A DNA stretch of 35,330 nt from positions 73,291-108,620 of the forward strand of contig JAJPJL010000083.1 of assembly GCA_021324255.1 (NCBI GenBank). The letters run 5' to 3'. This DNA comes from Bacillota bacterium (lineage in GTDB: Bacteria; Sysuimicrobiota; Sysuimicrobiia; Sysuimicrobiales; Segetimicrobiaceae). The notes beneath the pieces are model-generated. The model saw only the letters and a program-made list of their open reading frames with translations. It was not told the DNA's origin and did not search any database. Positions 1 to 28,486 of this stretch are shown in pieces; position 1 is the stretch's first letter, and the number at the start of each line of letters is the position of its first letter. A program made the translations under genes and the position numbers.

Positions 1-1098
1 CACGCGCCGCTGGCCGCAGAGCTCGATGAAGTGGGCGCCTTTTTCCGCGCTCTCCACGAACAGCACCCCGTTGTTCGCGAGGATCCCCACGGGAATGCCG
101 TGGATCCGCGCAAACCCCGTGACGAGGGTGGTGCCGTACAGCGCCTTGAACTCGTGGAACCGGCTCCCGTCCACGATCCGCGCGATGACCTCGCGCGCGT
201 CGAACTGGCGGCGCAGGTCCCGCGGGAGCACGCCGTAGAGCTCGCGGGGATCGTACCGCGGCTCCTCCGGCTCCGCCAGATCGAGGGACGGCGCCTTGAC
301 GCGATTGAACCCGCCGGCGATGTCGCGAACGATGGCGATCGCATCGGCGTCGTCCCTCGCCAGGTAGTCCGTGACGCCGCTCCGGCGGCAGTGGACGTCG
401 GCGCCGCCGAGCTCCTCCGCGCTCACGTCCTCGCCGGTCGCGGCGCGCACGAGCGGCGGGCCGCCCAGAAACACCGTGCCCGTGCCCCGGACGATCACGG
501 CTTCGTCGGACATCGCGGGCACGTACGCCCCGCCGGCCGTGCACGAGCCCATCACGGCGGCGACCTGCGGCACGCCCGCGGCCGAGAGCCGCGCCTGATT
601 GAAGAAGATGCGGCCGAAGTGATCCCGGTCCGGAAACACCTCGGCCTGGAGCGGGAGAAACGCCCCCCCCGAATCCACGAGGTAGATGCACGGCAGCCGG
701 TTCTCGAGGGCGATCTCCTGGGCCCGCAGGTGCTTCTTGACGGTCACGGGATAGTAGGTGCCGCCCTTGACGGTGGCGTCGTTGGCGACGATCACGCACT
801 CGCAGCCGCGCACGCGCCCGATGCCGGTGACGAGGCCAGCGGCCGGGGCCTCGCCGTCATACATGTCCCACGCGGCGAGCGGCGCGATCTCGAGGAACGG
901 CGACCCCGCGTCGAGCAGCCGGTCGACGCGTTCGCGCGCCGTCCACTTGCCCTGCGCGCGCTGCCGCTCCCGGGCCCCGCCCCCCTCGCGCACACGCGCC
1001 AGGCGTTCTCGGAGGGTGCGAGCGAGTCCCTCGTGATAGGCCCGGTTGTCGTTGAACTCCTGCGACCGCGTGTCGACGTGAGACTCGAGGACGCTCAT
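1..1098 (-). CDS. acyl-CoA carboxylase, carboxyltransferase (beta) subunit, methylcrotonyl-CoA carboxylase-like; 3' end off window
   Basis: Partial: 366 codons are present, starting at ATG 1096-1098, and the C-terminal part lies beyond position 1. The protein begins [18 protein letters not shown] and contains the carboxyltransferase N-domain: [21 protein letters not shown], a [20 protein letters not shown]-type stretch, [15 protein letters not shown], then [15 protein letters not shown] and [15 protein letters not shown], which carry the glycine-rich oxyanion and acyl-CoA loops. The visible part ends in [10 protein letters not shown], just before the biotin-side loop of the family. The order and wording fit methylcrotonyl-CoA carboxylase beta better than propionyl- or acetyl-CoA carboxylase, but acyl specificity is not decided by this part. 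It transfers carboxyl from carboxybiotin to an acyl-CoA in the cytoplasm. The biotin-carrying alpha subunit would be expected downstream, outside the window. The upstream ribosome site is weak. Confidence 0.9.
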
Positions 1099-1177: not shown

Positions 1178-2071
1178 CTACGACTCCGGCGGCGAGGCTC
1201 CGGCGTGTTCCAGCGCGGCGCGGATCTCGTCGCGCGCCTCGGGCCCGAGCGCCGGCACGGGCGCGACCGGGTCGCCGACCTCGAATCCCTGCAGCTCGAG
1301 CCCGGCCTTCACGCACGCCGCGAGCGCGTGCCGCTGAAACACCTCGTTGAGCCGCCAGAGCCGCCGTTGCAGGCGCTCGGCCTCATCCCACCGACCCCGC
1401 CGGGCGAGGTCGTACAGGGCGACGCAGCGCTCGGGCAGGAGACACGCCGGCCCGGCCATCCAGCCGACCCCGCCGAGCCGGAAGACCAGGAGCGGTACGT
1501 GCGCGGACGCGCTGAACACCCGGAGGCGGTGCCCGGCGTGGTTCAACACGGTGAGGATCTTGCCGGTCTCGCCCGACGCCTCCTAGAAGTACCGGACGGT
1601 GGGAAGTTCGCTCAGGGCCACGATCAGATCCGGCGTCAGCTCGGCGCCGAGCAGCTTCGGGTTCGAGTACACGACGAGCGGGCACGGCAGCTCCCGCGCC
1701 ACGCCGGAGAAAAACTCAACGATCGCCGTTCGGGACAGGGCGAAGTACGTCTGCAGGATCACCACGATGCCCTGCGCGCCGAGCTCCACCATGCGGCGCC
1801 CCTGCTCGATCGCGTCGTGGGTCGCGTAGGCCGCCACGCCGGGCACCACGGGGACGCGGCCCCGGGCCGCCTCCACGGTGATCCGCACGATCTCCTCTCG
1901 CTGGCGGCGGGTCAGATACGGAAACTCGCCCGTGCTGCCGAGCGGGCTCAGGCCGTGGACGCCCGCGTTGATGAGGTGCTCGACCAGCCGCCGCAGGGTG
2001 TGCTCGCGCACCCGCCCCGAGGCGTCGAGCGGAGACACCAGATACGGGAAGATGCCGTGGAACGGCTCCAT
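1178..2071 (-). pseudogene. DapA/NAL-family aldolase with in-frame TAG at the catalytic lysine codon
   Basis: A 298-codon frame from ATG 2069-2071 to TAG 1178-1180, the normal length for the dihydrodipicolinate synthase/N-acetylneuraminate lyase superfamily. It begins MEPFHGIFPYLVSPLDASG. The substrate-loop motif GSTGE is at 45-49 and the conserved tyrosine is in YSNP at 135. Codon 163 (1583-1585) reads TAG where the family has the Schiff-base lysine: VRYF-stop-EASGETGK against the usual GIK-EASG. The frame continues in register with convincing sequence to the end, so this is a single nonsense codon and not a frameshift. As written the product is a 162-residue fragment plus an untranslated or re-initiated C-terminal part. 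The arginine that follows YNxP in true DapA is Leu here, so the substrate is probably not that of DapA. It may be a recent pseudogene, a sequence error, or a readthrough gene. Confidence 0.85.
1583..1585 (-). other. in-frame amber codon at the Schiff-base lysine position of the DapA-family gene
   Basis: On the minus strand the codons read TAC TTC TAG GAG GCG TCG GGC GAG, giving Y-F-stop-E-A-S-G-E. The family consensus at this point is [IF]-K-[ED]-[AS]-S-G, with the lysine forming the covalent imine with substrate. A single A-to-T change would turn AAG into TAG. This gene's own terminator and those of at least seven neighbours in the window are also TAG, so TAG is a working stop here. Confidence 0.85.
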
Positions 2072-2095: not shown

Positions 2096-2114
2096 GCAGC
2101 GCCTTCCTCGCTGC
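2096..2114 (-). promoter_or_regulatory. 6-bp hairpin with ribosome-site-like loop, upstream of the DapA-family gene
   Basis: The arms GCAGCG (2096-2101) and CGCTGC (2109-2114) pair perfectly. The 7-base loop reads AGGAAGG on the minus strand, which resembles a ribosome-binding site but sits about 30 bases from the ATG. It lies in the 80-base gap between the SYLF stop and the aldolase start and is next to the stronger repeat at 2075-2094. Its role is unknown. Confidence 0.35.
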
Positions 2115-2151
2115 TCCGAAATCGCCGGCCCGCTCCGCCGCCGGCGCGGGC

Positions 2152-2733
2152 CTACCGGTAGATGCGGGTGATCTTGGCGCCCTGCAGCGTCAGGTTGTAC
2201 ATCAGCCCCTTCTGGTCGAACACGTACGCGACCACGGGCGCGTTGAGCGTCGTGGTATTGATGGACGCCTGCCCGCCCACGGTGACCAGGACAACCGACC
2301 CGTTGACGCCGACCTGCCAGTTTTTGCCGGCGAGCGCCGTTTGCCGGAAGTGCTCCAGAGCCTGCCGTTGCAGGAACGCGATGACGATCGACTTCCGCTG
2401 CGCGCCGAACTGCAGGCCCCATGACCCTGCGGCGATACTGTAGTACGCGACGCTCCGGCCGCGCATGCGCAGCACGCCTTCGCCGTACTCGCCGCCGATG
2501 CCCACACCGGCCTGGATCACCTCGGGAAACACGAGCACGCCGACCGCATCCCGCAGGACGGCGCTCCCGCCTCGTACCTGGCTGCGGAACAGCGCGAGGG
2601 TCTGGTCCGCCGACGCGTTGATCCTCGCGGCGGATGCGGCATCTGACGGGACCGGCAGCAGGACGACGCCCGCCGTCACGCACAGCGCGAGCGCTGTCGC
2701 GAGGTATCGCCCGCCTTGAGGCCCTCTCTTCAT
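2152..2733 (-). CDS. SYLF/YSC84-domain lipid-binding exported protein
   Basis: 193 residues from ATG 2731-2733, chosen over an upstream in-frame ATG at 2793 because a GGAGGA ribosome site sits about 8 bases before it and a clean signal peptide follows: MKRGPQGGRYLATALALCVTAGVVLLPVPSDAASA. The mature part is a YSC84/SYLF domain: DQTLALFR, LRDAVGVLVFPEVIQAGVGIGGEYGEGVL, YYSIAAGSWGLQFGAQRKSIVIAFL, and a C-terminal GLMYNLTLQGAKITRIYR. SYLF domains bind membrane lipids, phosphoinositides in eukaryotes. In bacteria they are small secreted or envelope proteins of unclear role. It stands alone between gaps of about 80 bases (downstream) and 228 bases (upstream). The stop is TAG. Confidence 0.88.
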   Translation of the reverse strand: MKRGPQGGRYLATALALCVTAGVVLLPVPSDAASAARINASADQTLALFRSQVRGGSAVLRDAVGVLVFPEVIQAGVGIGGEYGEGVLRMRGRSVAYYSIAAGSWGLQFGAQRKSIVIAFLQRQALEHFRQTALAGKNWQVGVNGSVVLVTVGGQASINTTTLNAPVVAYVFDQKGLMYNLTLQGAKITRIYR

Positions 2734-2775
2734 ACCAGTCGTCCTCCTCGGCTCGGAAGTGCAGCGCGACCTTGA

Positions 2776-2810
2776 TAAGAGAAATTTTGCCACGTTGCGT
2801 CGCTTTCAAA
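2776..2810 (-). promoter_or_regulatory. possible promoter for the SYLF gene
   Basis: Within a GC-rich surround this stretch is notably AT-rich. On the minus strand it has TTGAAA (2804-2809) followed after about 16 bases by AAATTT, in the right place and direction upstream of the start at 2733. The -10 match is poor, so this is a weak call. Confidence 0.25.
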
Positions 2811-2906
2811 CGTTTCCGCGGCCACGCCCGTGCCGCCTCGTCCCGGTGGGCGCAGCAGGCCGGCGCCGGCACCTCGGTGACAGCCGCGCGCCGGGGCCGG
2901 ACGAGA

Positions 2907-5203: not shown

Positions 5204-7513
5204 TCAGCCCCCGGAGAGGAGCCCCAACGCCCGCGCGATCTTCTCCGGTGTGATCGGAAGATCCGTGATCCGAACCCCGACGGCATCCTCGACGGCGTTG
5301 GCGATCGCCGCCGCCGGCGGTCCGATCGGGGGTTCGCCGATGCCGCGGGCGGCAAACGGGCCCTTGCCGTCGCCGGACTCGATGATGATCGGCTCGACGT
5401 CGGGCACATCGAGCGCGCTCGGGATGAGGTACGACGCGAAGCTCGTGGTCAGGTTGACGCCGCGGTCCACGATGATCTCCTCCATCAGCCCGTAGCCGAG
5501 GCCCATCACCGCGCCCCCCTGCACCTGGCCTTCCACGCTCTGCGGATTGATCGCCCGGCCGACGTCGTGGCAGGCGACGTGGCGCCGCACGGACGCCGCG
5601 CCGGTGTCCACGTCGACCTCGACCTCCACGGCGTGCGCGCCGAACGTGTAGTCCGGAAAGACCCGCCCGCCTCCCCGCTCGAGATCCACCGGGTCGCCCG
5701 CGGGCGCGTGGTAGACGCCGAGGTGACTGCGCGGCACGCCCAGGCGGGCGCACTCCTTGACCACGTCCGCGAGCAGGACGCGCCGCTCCGGTCCCGCGGT
5801 CGCCGCGCCGTCTGCGAGCGCCACCTGCTCTACCGGGGTCTCGAGCAGCCGGGCGGCGACCCTGCGCACCTCGTCGTGGAGCTGCGTCGCGGCCACGAGC
5901 ACCGCGTTCCCCGACATGTACAGTTGCCGGGTCGCGGTGGTCGTGCCTGCCAGCGGCGTCAACGCGCTGTCCGCGATGTGCACCGTGACCCGGTCGGGCT
6001 CCACCCCGAGGGCCTCCGCGGCGATCTGGCACAGCGACGAGGCCTGCCCCCCGCCGACGTCCGGGACGCCGCAACGCACCACGACGCTGCCGTCGGCCTC
6101 GAGCCCCACCCAGGCGCTCGCCCAGTCCCTGAGCCACACGAGGCGGCCGTAGGGCTGCAGGTTGCAGGCCAGGCCCCGGCCGACGCGGTGTCTCGGGCTC
6201 GACGGTGCCCGCGGCGGGCCGAGCGCGGCCCAGGCCCGCTCGGCCGCCTCGGCGACCGCGACGTGCGTGTCCAGCGCCTGCCCCACCGGCAGGCGGTCGC
6301 CCCGGCGGAGCGCGCTCCGCCGGCGCACCTCCACGGGATCCAGGCCCAGGCGGCGCGCAATCTGGTCGATCTGCGACTCGTACCCCAGCACCATCTGCAT
6401 CGCCCCGAACCCGCGCATCGCGCTCGTCGGCGGGTTGTTCGTGTAGACGGCCCGGGCGTCCACGGCCACGTGCGGCACCCGGTACGGCCCGGCCGCGGTC
6501 ACCGTCGCATAGAGCAGCACGAGCGCGCTCAGGTACGCGTAGGCGCCGGCATCGGCCGTGAGCTCGATGCGGTGGGCCAGGAGCGTGCCGTCTCGTGCCG
6601 CGCCCGTCCGGTACCGGAGCGTAAACGGATGGCGCTTGGGACGCGCGAGCAGGGACTCCTGCCTCGACCACACCATGCGCACCGGCCGGCCGGTGCGGTA
6701 CGCCAGCAGCCCGAGAAAGACCTCGACGGTGACGTCCTCCTTGCCGCCGAAGCCGCCGCCCACGTACGGGCCGATCACGCGCACCTTGTTGTGGGGCAGG
6801 CCGAGCACGTCGGCGACGTCGCGGAAGTGCTCGATGACCTGGGTCGACGCGCGCACGACCACGACGCCGTCCGCGTCGATCCACGCCACGCCGGCTTCCG
6901 GCTCGAGGTAGGCGTGGTCGATGAGCCCGCACCGGTACGTCTGCTCCACGACCGCGTGCGCCCGCGCGAGCGCTGTGTCCGCGTCGCCGCACCGCACGCG
7001 CCAGGTCGCGAGCACGTTGCCCTCCTCGTGGACGCGCGGCGCGTCCGGCCGGAGCGCATCCTCCGTGGTGAAGACCCCCGGCTGGGCCTCGTAGGCGACG
7101 TCGATGAGCTCGAGGGCCCGGTCCGCGATCTCCCGTGTCTCGGCCGCGACGAGCGCGACGGCCTCGCCCTGGTACCGGACCTGATCGTCCGCCAGCACCT
7201 GGACGCGGGCGCGCAGCGGGCCGACGACGCTGGTCTGCCCCGGCACGTCCGTCCACAGGATGTTGTGCGGGACGTCGCGCGCGGTGAGCACGGCCGCGAC
7301 GCCCGGACACGCCGCCGCCCGGCTCGTGTCGATCCGCGTGATGCGGGCCGCCGGATACGGCGAGCGCAGGACGGCGCCCTCGAGCATGCCCGGCATCTGC
7401 CAGTCCGCGGCGTAGAGCGTGCGGGCCAGGACCTTGTCGCGCGCGTCGTGGCGCGGCAGCCGCCGGCCGACGACGCGGAGGCGCTCCCGTGTCGCGGCGG
7501 GGGATTCAGCCAC
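5204..7513 (-). CDS. xanthine dehydrogenase-family molybdopterin-binding large subunit (module 1)
   Basis: 769 residues from GTG 7511-7513, overlapping the small-subunit stop by 8 bases. The N-terminal a/b hammerhead domain (VGRRLPRHDARDKVLARTLYAADW) is followed by the two molybdopterin domains. Signature sites are YVGGGFGGKEDVT, SAMRGFGAMQ (its Arg matches the substrate-binding Arg of xanthine oxidase), VGGGQASSLCQIAAEALG, TRQLYMSGNA, and ARGIGEPPIGPP, whose Glu is the catalytic base of the family. The CO-dehydrogenase active-site loop AYRCSFR is absent, so this is a ring or aldehyde hydroxylase and not a form I CO dehydrogenase. Substrate unknown; purines, N-heterocycles or aldehydes are the usual ones. 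It works with the next two genes as an L2M2S2-type cytoplasmic enzyme. Confidence 0.92.
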   Translation of the reverse strand: MAESPAATRERLRVVGRRLPRHDARDKVLARTLYAADWQMPGMLEGAVLRSPYPAARITRIDTSRAAACPGVAAVLTARDVPHNILWTDVPGQTSVVGPLRARVQVLADDQVRYQGEAVALVAAETREIADRALELIDVAYEAQPGVFTTEDALRPDAPRVHEEGNVLATWRVRCGDADTALARAHAVVEQTYRCGLIDHAYLEPEAGVAWIDADGVVVVRASTQVIEHFRDVADVLGLPHNKVRVIGPYVGGGFGGKEDVTVEVFLGLLAYRTGRPVRMVWSRQESLLARPKRHPFTLRYRTGAARDGTLLAHRIELTADAGAYAYLSALVLLYATVTAAGPYRVPHVAVDARAVYTNNPPTSAMRGFGAMQMVLGYESQIDQIARRLGLDPVEVRRRSALRRGDRLPVGQALDTHVAVAEAAERAWAALGPPRAPSSPRHRVGRGLACNLQPYGRLVWLRDWASAWVGLEADGSVVVRCGVPDVGGGQASSLCQIAAEALGVEPDRVTVHIADSALTPLAGTTTATRQLYMSGNAVLVAATQLHDEVRRVAARLLETPVEQVALADGAATAGPERRVLLADVVKECARLGVPRSHLGVYHAPAGDPVDLERGGGRVFPDYTFGAHAVEVEVDVDTGAASVRRHVACHDVGRAINPQSVEGQVQGGAVMGLGYGLMEEIIVDRGVNLTTSFASYLIPSALDVPDVEPIIIESGDGKGPFAARGIGEPPIGPPAAAIANAVEDAVGVRITDLPITPEKIARALGLLSGG

Positions 7514-7979
7514 GGGCGGCTCCCTCCGCGCAGGCCGCGATCGCGTCGATGATCTTCGTGTAGCCGGTGCAGCGGCAGAGGTTGCCCGCGATCGCCCGGC
7601 GGATCTCCGCGCGGCTCGCCCGCGGCCGGTCTCGCAGCAGCGCGTACGCGGTGAGCAGCATCCCGGGCGTGCAAAACCCGCACTGCGCGGCCCCATGCGC
7701 CACGAACGCGGACTGCAGCGGGTGCGGCGCGCCCGCGTCGCCGAGGCCGCGCACCGTCATGAGATCGCGCCCCTGCGCGCGCGCGGCGAGCACCAGGCAG
7801 CTGCTCACCGGCTCGCCGTCCAGGAGCACGGTGCACGTGCCGCACACGCCTTCCCCGCACCCTTCCTTCACGTCCACGGCCCCGCGGGCGCGGAGGACCT
7901 CGAGCAGCGTCCGGTGCGCCGCGGTCTGGGCCTCGCACGGCTCTCCGTTGAGCGTGAACGCGATCCGAAGTTCGGTCAC
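7506..7979 (-). CDS. 2Fe-2S small subunit of molybdenum hydroxylase (module 1)
   Basis: 157 residues from GTG 7977-7979, overlapping the stop of the FAD subunit as GTGA. The plant-type ferredoxin cluster is Cys41, 46, 49 and 61 in EGCGEGVCGTCTVLLDG. The helical-domain cluster is Cys100 and 103 (QCGFCTPGML) with Cys135 and 137 (NLCRCTGY). All eight ligands are present. It passes electrons from the molybdenum site in the large subunit to the FAD of the medium subunit. Length and motif spacing are normal for CoxS/HcrC-type proteins. Confidence 0.94.
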   Translation of the reverse strand: MTELRIAFTLNGEPCEAQTAAHRTLLEVLRARGAVDVKEGCGEGVCGTCTVLLDGEPVSSCLVLAARAQGRDLMTVRGLGDAGAPHPLQSAFVAHGAAQCGFCTPGMLLTAYALLRDRPRASRAEIRRAIAGNLCRCTGYTKIIDAIAACAEGAARG

Positions 7980-22737: not shown

Positions 22738-22928
22738 GCTGTCCCTCCTCCCCGGATCTAGGGCGTGCAGTGTCGCGGTCGCACACGAGCGGGTGCGTAT
22801 GCCGAGCACGCTTCTCCGCACCGGAGGCAAGTCCTCCTCGGCCCGGGCCGGTCGGGGATTCGCAGGGGTTTACGCACGCTGCACTAAGCGCCCCGGCCCG
22901 CAAGCTCGGTCCGCACATCGATCCAGGG

Positions 22929-25614: not shown

Positions 25615-27942
25615 CTACCTCCCCTCGTTTGTCCCCGCGCGCTCCGCCAGGGCGCGAAACACGCGCTCCGGGGTGATGGGCAGTTCGAGCGGCCGCGCGC
25701 CGGTGGCGTCGGCGATCGCGCTGGCGATGGCCGCGAGCGGCGGCCCCGTCGGGGGCTCGCCGATGCCGCGCGCACCGAACGGCCCGCGGCCCTCTCCCGA
25801 CTCGACGGCGATGGCCTGGCTGTCGGGAAGGTCCGGGGCCACCGGCATGAGGTAGTTTGCGAACAGCGTCGTGAGGTTGACGCCGGCCTCGAGGGCGATC
25901 TCCTCGCCGAGCGCCTGGCCGATGCCCATCGCGGCGCCCCCCTGGATCTGTCCGGCGACGCTCTGCGGGTTGATCGCCCGGCCCACGTCGTGGCACGCGA
26001 CGTACTTGAGCAGCCGCGTCGCCCCGGTCTCGACGTCCACCTCGACTTCCGCGGCGTGGCATCCATACGTGTAGTCGGGGAACGTCCGCCCCTGCCCGGT
26101 TTCGAGGTCCGGGGGCGCGGACCGCTCACCCTGGAACGTGGACAGGCGCGACACGGGCACGCCGCGCCGGGCGCACTCCGCGACGACGCGGGCCAGCGGC
26201 ACGCACCGGTCGGGGGCTCCCGCGACGCCGGCGTGGTCGTCCGCGAACTCCAGGTCCGCCTCGGCGGCTTCCAGGAGCGACGCCGCCACGGGGGCGATCC
26301 CGGCCCGCAGCTCGCGCGCACAACACAGCGCCGCGTTCCCGGACATGTAGAGCTGGCGCGTCGCGAACGTGCCGCCCGTGAGCGGGGTGAGGGCGCTGTC
26401 CCCCACGTGCACGCGGATGCGCTCGACCGACACGCCCAGCACCTCGGCCGCGATCTGCGCGAGCGAGGCGGCCTGTCCGCCGCCGAGGTCGGGCACGCCG
26501 GCGCGGATGACGAGGGAGCCGTCGGCCTCGAACCCGAGCCACGCGCTCGCGCGGTCCTGAAACCACACCGTCCGCCCGTACGGCTGCATGTTGCACGCGA
26601 TGCCCCGGCCCACGCGCGCCCCGGGGCCGGAGGGCCGGCTCGGTTCGCCGAGCGCGTCCTGGGCCCGGCGGAGGAGCTCGGGGAGCGCCACGTACGTGCT
26701 CGCCGCCTCCCCGGTGGGGAGGCGGTCGCCTTTGCGCAGGAAGTTGCGCTCGCGGATGGCCGCAGGCGACATCCCGAGCGCGGCGGCGAGGAGATCCATC
26801 TGCGCCTCGTAGGCGAACGTGACCTGCATCGCCCCGAAGCCGCGCATCGCGCTCGCGGGGACGTTGTTGGTGAACACCGCCCGGGCGTCGATCCGCACAT
26901 GGGGAACGCAGTACGGGCCCGCCCCCGTGACGAGCGCGGCAAACAGCACGCGCGGGCTGAGCAGCGGGTACGGTCCGGCATCGGCGAGCAGGCTGATCTC
27001 CTGCGCCACCAGGCTCCCGTCCCGCGCCGCCCCGGTCTTGTAGCGCATCACAAACGCGTGCCGCTTCGGGCGCGCCAGCAGCGACTCGGCCCGGTCCCAC
27101 ACCATGCGCACCGGGCGTCCCGTGGCCCACGCCAGCGCCGCCACGTACGGTTCGGCGGTCATGTCCTCCTTGCCGCCGAAGCCGCCGCCGAGAAACGGCG
27201 CGATGACGCGCACGCGATTGTGCGGCAGGCCCAGGATCTCGGCGAGCGCGCGAAAGTGCTCGACGACCTGGGACGAGGCTCTGACCGTGACGACGCCGTC
27301 GGCCTCCACCCACGCGACGCCCGCCTCGGGCTCGAGGTAGGCGTGGTCCACGCGCTGCGTGCGGTAGGTGCGCTCCACGACGGCCGCGGCGCCGCGGAAA
27401 CCCGTCTCCACGTCGCCCCGGCGGAGCTTCCAGTGTACGAACACGTTGTCCCGGCCGTCGTGGACCCGCTCGGCGCCGCGCCGCGCCGCGGCCTCCGCGT
27501 CATGGACCCCCGGCAGCGGCTCATACTCCACCTCGATCGCAGCGAGCGCCGCGCGGGCGGCCGCGTCCGTCGCCGCCGCGACGATCGCCACCGGCTCGCC
27601 CTGATAGCGCACGACGCCGTCGGCGAGGACGGGCGTCGTGAACCGGAGCAGCCCGGCCCCGGTGGGATCCTCCTCGACGCCGTTGCGCGGGAGGTCGCCC
27701 GCCGTGAGCACGGCCGCGACGCCCGGAAGCGCCCGCGCCCGCGCGACGTCGAGACGCCGGATCCGCGCGCACGGGTAGATCGACCGCAGCACCCGGCCCA
27801 CGAGCATCCCCGGCAGCTGCCAGTCCGCCGCGTACTGGGTCGTCCCGCGGACCTTGTCGGCGACGTCGAAGCGCGGTAGCGCCTTGCCGATGACCCGATA
27901 GGCTGCGGGGGAAACGCCGCCGCTTGCGGGCTCAGGGATCAC
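25615..27942 (-). CDS. xanthine dehydrogenase-family molybdopterin-binding large subunit (module 2)
   Basis: 775 residues from GTG 27940-27942, which overlaps the small-subunit stop by 11 bases and has GAGAGGA upstream. Same domain order and motifs as the large subunit at 5204-7513: VIGKALPRFDVADKVRGTTQYAADW, FLGGGFGGKEDMTAE, SAMRGFGAMQ, LGGGQAASLAQIAAEVLG, TRQLYMSGNA, and ARGIGEPPTGPP with the catalytic Glu. It too lacks the AYRCSFR loop of CO dehydrogenase. The two proteins are clearly paralogues and differ most in the segment after VLTA (NGVEEDPTGAGLLRF here) and in surface stretches. Substrate unknown. The stop is TAG. Confidence 0.92.
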   Translation of the reverse strand: MIPEPASGGVSPAAYRVIGKALPRFDVADKVRGTTQYAADWQLPGMLVGRVLRSIYPCARIRRLDVARARALPGVAAVLTAGDLPRNGVEEDPTGAGLLRFTTPVLADGVVRYQGEPVAIVAAATDAAARAALAAIEVEYEPLPGVHDAEAAARRGAERVHDGRDNVFVHWKLRRGDVETGFRGAAAVVERTYRTQRVDHAYLEPEAGVAWVEADGVVTVRASSQVVEHFRALAEILGLPHNRVRVIAPFLGGGFGGKEDMTAEPYVAALAWATGRPVRMVWDRAESLLARPKRHAFVMRYKTGAARDGSLVAQEISLLADAGPYPLLSPRVLFAALVTGAGPYCVPHVRIDARAVFTNNVPASAMRGFGAMQVTFAYEAQMDLLAAALGMSPAAIRERNFLRKGDRLPTGEAASTYVALPELLRRAQDALGEPSRPSGPGARVGRGIACNMQPYGRTVWFQDRASAWLGFEADGSLVIRAGVPDLGGGQAASLAQIAAEVLGVSVERIRVHVGDSALTPLTGGTFATRQLYMSGNAALCCARELRAGIAPVAASLLEAAEADLEFADDHAGVAGAPDRCVPLARVVAECARRGVPVSRLSTFQGERSAPPDLETGQGRTFPDYTYGCHAAEVEVDVETGATRLLKYVACHDVGRAINPQSVAGQIQGGAAMGIGQALGEEIALEAGVNLTTLFANYLMPVAPDLPDSQAIAVESGEGRGPFGARGIGEPPTGPPLAAIASAIADATGARPLELPITPERVFRALAERAGTNEGR

Positions 27943-28486
27943 GGAGGACGTCCTCTCGTCCCGGCCGGGCGCGCACGCAGGCCTCGACCGCGTCCACGAT
28001 CCTGGCGTACCCCGTACACCGGCACAGGTTGCCGCCGAGCGCCGCGCGGATCTCGGCGCGTGTCGGATGGGGATGTTTCTCCAGGAAGGCGTAGGCGGTG
28101 AGCAGCATCCCCGGCGTGCAGAAGCCGCACTGCGCTGCCTCGTGGGCCACAAACGCGCGCTGGAGCGGATGCATGCCGTCCGCCGCCGCGCCCGTGGCGC
28201 CCGCCGGCGAGGCGAGCCCGCGGACCGTCGTGACCGTGCGTCCCTGCGCGTGCACGCCGAGCGTCAGGCAGGCGTTGATGGGGGCTCCATCCAGCAGCAC
28301 CGTGCATGTGCCGCACACGCCCTCGCCGCAGCCGTACTTCACCTCCGTCGCGCCGAGGGTGTCTCGAAGCACCGCGAGCAGCGTTTCCTGCGGGGCGGCC
28401 CACACGTCCACCGGCCGGCCGTTGAGGACGAAGCGGAGCGCCGCCCGCTCGGGGTATTCGCGGGATGCCGCCGGTGATACGCTCAC
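27932..28486 (-). CDS. 2Fe-2S small subunit of molybdenum hydroxylase (module 2)
   Basis: 184 residues from GTG 28484-28486, overlapping the FAD-subunit stop as GTGA. All eight cluster ligands are present: Cys53, 58, 61 and 73 (YGCGEGVCGTCTVLLDG) and Cys120, 123, 155 and 157 (QCGFCTPGML, NLCRCTGY). It is longer than its module 1 counterpart by an N-terminal lead of about 15 residues, an Ala/Gly insert before HPLQRAFVAHEAAQ, and a charged C-terminal tail. Electron transfer from molybdopterin to FAD. Confidence 0.94.
   Translation of the reverse strand: MSVSPAASREYPERAALRFVLNGRPVDVWAAPQETLLAVLRDTLGATEVKYGCGEGVCGTCTVLLDGAPINACLTLGVHAQGRTVTTVRGLASPAGATGAAADGMHPLQRAFVAHEAAQCGFCTPGMLLTAYAFLEKHPHPTRAEIRAALGGNLCRCTGYARIVDAVEACVRARPGREDVLRDP

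Follow-up and report, generated by a model that had tools for sequence, protein, structure and literature searches.

An in-frame amber codon at the Schiff-base lysine position of a DapA-superfamily aldolase gene, probably a very recent single-base change

In its assembled form, an aldolase gene of an uncultured high-GC Bacillota bacterium carries an amber codon, TAG, at the position of the catalytic Schiff-base lysine. Lysine is encoded at this position in the relatives, the frame was under purifying selection in the past, and no suppressor machinery was detected in the genome. Probably this gene underwent a single, very recent AAG-to-TAG change, which is either fixed or a strain polymorphism that the assembly captured; the division of weight between mutation and sequencing error is a matter of judgement. 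In kind, it is an ordinary single-base nonsense event or a sequencing error. The gene lies in a stretch of 35,330 nucleotides (the window) of a 3.7-Mb draft genome (G000; 142 contigs, 94.85% complete, contamination estimate 3.7%).

The aldolase gene and its neighbourhood

The gene occupies positions 1178..2071 of the window on the minus strand. When TAG is read as a sense codon, translation of the frame 2071-1178 gives 297 open codons with one internal stop, at codon 163 (1583..1585, minus strand), where the minus strand reads ...GTC CGG TAC TTC TAG GAG GCG TCG GGC GAG.... A second TAG (1178..1180, minus strand) is the genuine terminator of the gene, as seen from translation and from comparison with the sister genome G001, whose counterpart ends in TAG as well.

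Translation, Pfam PF00701, PDB 3eb2 and dN/dS identify the frame as a DHDPS/DapA-superfamily (class I) aldolase gene of a 3eb2-like subgroup with one amber interruption. In a profile search, the read-through product matches PF00701 over the full length of the family (174.9 bits, positions 2-288 of 289); the Schiff-base lysine of the family, present in 111 relatives, is missing from the product as assembled, since codon 163 is TAG. The best solved relative is PDB 3eb2, a putative dihydrodipicolinate synthetase (342.5 bits), and codon 163 aligns with the lysine of its YIKDAS motif. The gene thus shares with the 3eb2 group a full-length alignment (342 bits) and the RY[IF]K[DE]AS motif frame, but differs from it in that the motif lysine codon is TAG. 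The earlier note had described a single TAG in an otherwise open DapA-family frame, falling on the Schiff-base lysine, and this description is borne out by the translation, PF00701, the 111 relatives and 3eb2.

The aldolase scores 136.6 bits against the dapA equivalog TIGR00674 (curated cut-off 206.15) and reaches the cut-off of none of the specific NCBIfam equivalogs, dapA included. The true DapA of this genome is probably encoded by a different gene (L001), which scores 327.7 bits to PF00701.

A gene of the acyl-CoA carboxyltransferase family, truncated where the window ends, is located downstream (1..1098, minus strand; PF01039, 348 bits; synteny). A gene of this family adjoins the aldolase also in G001 and in a second genome of the genus, G002, and hydroxymethylglutaryl-CoA lyase is encoded further along in G002. 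Immediately upstream of the aldolase there is a gene for a SYLF/Ysc84-domain lipoprotein (2152..2733, minus strand; PF04366, 40.2 bits; NF049970, 167.7 bits, below the cut-off of 200). It is carried by a segment of ~0.7-0.8 kb (window 2108-2885) that separates the aldolase from a short secreted-peptide-like gene; G001 lacks this segment at the corresponding place. As a guess, this indel could have separated the aldolase from its promoter and relaxed the need for the enzyme; a simple scan found no promoter-like site.

Comparison with the sister gave several other observations. At window ~22850-22916, G001 has ~9.9 kb of extra sequence (G001 C10 87249-97141), a large interspecies indel. Outside the window, a ~2-kb segment of G000 (C10:57760-59713) is inverted relative to the sister. 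The stretches ~5243-7910 and 25666-28384 of the window each match, at ~68-69% identity, the sister sequence that corresponds to the other one, and so may hold two genes that are old paralogs.

The lysine codon in relatives and constraint on the frame

Intact counterparts of the aldolase occur in two genomes of the genus, with 92% and 80% identity, and in four further genomes of the family (66-69%). The closest of these is the sister G001 (Bacillota bacterium isolate Centralia_MAG_233; same genus, 92% identity). Among 114 aligned places, the codon-163 position is AAG in 98, AAA in 13 and Ile in one, and the remaining two are the locus itself, fetched twice. The single Ile (L022) is a one-column misalignment beside the lysine of the IKET motif of that same protein. 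All properly aligned relatives therefore have AAG or AAA; an in-frame TAG is conserved in none of them, and a branch of the family naturally devoid of the lysine can be ruled out. Comparison of the codon in sister genomes had been suggested as a check in the earlier note, and it gave plain AAG at the place of the stop both in G001 (92% identical) and in G002 (80%). Because these sister codons are AAG, the change is a single base on the lineage of G000 itself. At the preceding codon, G000 and G002 share TTC, and G001 has TTT.

Pairwise dN/dS of the aldolase against G001 is 0.207 for the whole gene and 0.148 for the part after the stop. Changes were assigned to branches by one outgroup, G002, with 14 sites left ambiguous; this gave 15 synonymous and 12 non-synonymous changes on the own branch against 22 and 9 on the sister branch. 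The two ratios do not differ significantly (Fisher P 0.28), and there is no sign of decay. Under neutrality ~40 non-synonymous changes would be expected on the own branch instead of 12 (P ~2e-7), and after the stop ~16 instead of 3, which accompany 6 synonymous ones (P ~7e-5). Most residues special to this copy are found elsewhere in the family. Non-synonymous changes are few against the neutral expectation, and therefore the frame either lost its function only very recently or has kept it to this day. These substitution counts indicate purifying selection on the frame for most of its lineage, and an old pseudogene is ruled out by the strong constraint along the own branch. The lack of decay is predicted equally well by an error in the consensus, for which the constrained remainder of the frame also speaks.

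Decoding machinery and the background of stops

To use pyrrolysine, a cell needs specific enzymes for its biosynthesis, an amber suppressor tRNA dedicated to it and a synthetase (PMC3941956). The best PylS match in the genome reaches 22.8 bits (cut-off 178.15). Comparable matches below the cut-off occur in control genomes and are presumably ordinary class II synthetases; no PylS over the cut-off was found in any of the 12 genomes of the family. For PylD, the best score in the genome is 19.6 bits (cut-off 150.05). The tRNA model RF00005 gave 45 genome matches over the cut-off and four weak ones. No CUA anticodon was found among the ARAGORN tRNAs at the strong matches, and the four weak ones gave no ARAGORN tRNA, in a screen which an odd tRNA-Pyl below the sensitivity of RF00005 could escape and which covered a genome 95% complete. 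The genome also encodes RF1 (502.5 bits), which terminates translation at TAG codons.

TAG is a normal terminator in these genomes. It ends 44 of ~118 conserved genes of G000 and 35 of 119 of G001 in the compared stretches (~29-37%), and the nine TAG terminators named in the earlier note are all TAG on the minus strand. As in pyrrolysine-containing enzymes, where UAG is decoded via tRNA-Pyl and PylS, an in-frame TAG stands at a catalytic position; unlike them, this case lacks PylS, PylD and a CUA tRNA, the relatives have lysine, and RF1 and TAG stops are in normal use. Decoding of the codon as pyrrolysine or by a suppressor was rejected on the basis of the PylS, PylD, RF1 and tRNA searches. 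Two of the three options raised in the earlier note, readthrough or suppressor decoding and the insertion of pyrrolysine, are thus not supported, and the search for pyl genes and an amber suppressor tRNA that it had proposed came back negative for PylS, PylD and a CUA tRNA.

Mid-gene stops were scanned in 508 kb of G000 against 978 kb of the sister, with a filter on codon-position GC (coding periodicity), because most of what looser scans flagged lay in upstream extensions or in antisense shadow frames; 124 genes with 48,092 codons were judged. Apart from the aldolase, no convincing mid-gene stop was found in these 124 genes, and there was among them no second lysine-to-TAG case or amber-recoding pattern. 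On the contig of the aldolase, its stop is the sole convincing one among 72 genes; the other listed stops fall close to 5' ends, in frames that had been extended too far. The only other listed case, a frame close to the beginning of contig C45 with two TGG-to-TGA changes, was set aside by judgement as a probable shadow frame, since the changes fall at third positions only. This result weighs against recoding as a general feature and against an assembly rich in errors throughout; it agrees with a single isolated event.

The coincidence of the stop with the catalytic residue was also evaluated. Of the 298 codons of the sister gene, 61 can turn into a stop by one substitution, and 49 can turn into TAG. 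Since a stop at any of the 61 would destroy the gene just as well, the chance that it falls on the catalytic lysine is ~1 in 60 per broken gene, before equally striking residues are counted. Such a position is unremarkable in an item selected from a reading of the whole genome, and the meaning which the earlier note had attached to it is not upheld.

Competing readings and consequences

The remaining option of the earlier note, a young one-base nonsense mutation or a consensus error, is favored by the AAG of the sister, the constrained rest of the frame and the failure to find decoding machinery. An ordinary single-nonsense pseudogene and an ordinary MAG consensus error both resemble the present case in the one base change, the intact sister copy and the lack of decoding machinery, and differ from it in that here the base has fallen by chance on the catalytic residue. 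Consensus or assembly error, with AAG in the cells, one wrong base in the assembly and an intact gene, would give the same sequence picture as a true mutation; the lesion is single and isolated, and the assembly is a draft of 142 contigs whose contamination is estimated at 3.7%. Against it, no other convincing nonsense codon occurs in ~48,000 compared codons, so that the assembly is not generally error-rich. Such an error is considered rather unlikely, with an appreciable share of the probability.

Other readings carry far less weight. The gene could be split in two, with a restart at a downstream GTG (~codon 175) and a two-chain protein; a 123-aa GTG frame at 1549-1178 agrees with this, but the catalytic lysine is in neither piece, frames of this sort are common in the present high-GC sequence, with 158 ORFs of at least 80 aa, and no close relative is split, which makes the proposal very improbable. 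A full-length aldolase would be made if TAG were decoded as lysine or pyrrolysine, whether through a Pyl system, through a suppressor tRNA or by programmed readthrough; this reading would account for the exact position of the stop and for the conserved downstream half. It is opposed by the missing PylS, PylD and CUA tRNA, the presence of RF1, the common use of TAG as a stop, including at the end of the aldolase itself, the plain AAG of the sister species and the lack of a second lysine-to-TAG case in 124 genes. This decoding is nearly excluded by the missing machinery, with a small gap left by the 95% completeness. A lineage-specific amber codon decoded as lysine or an analogue by a divergent suppressor tRNA, encoded in the missing 5% or below the sensitivity of the tRNA model, is barely conceivable.

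With a very recent nonsense change as the preferred reading, an ancestral aldolase gene with AAG at codon 163 would have been maintained by purifying selection until a single substitution, AAG to TAG, became fixed or arose as a strain polymorphism. Translation should then stop after 162 residues, inside the TIM barrel and ahead of the catalytic lysine; owing to this truncation, no active aldolase would be made. We infer both the loss of the product and the reality of the base in the cells.

No natural case of this kind was found in literature searches; decoding of the stop would make the gene a striking natural example of stop-codon recoding at a Schiff-base lysine. As it stands, the case matters only for annotation: the MAG probably has one aldolase that is either inactive or mis-sequenced, and a stop at a catalytic site is by itself no evidence for recoding.
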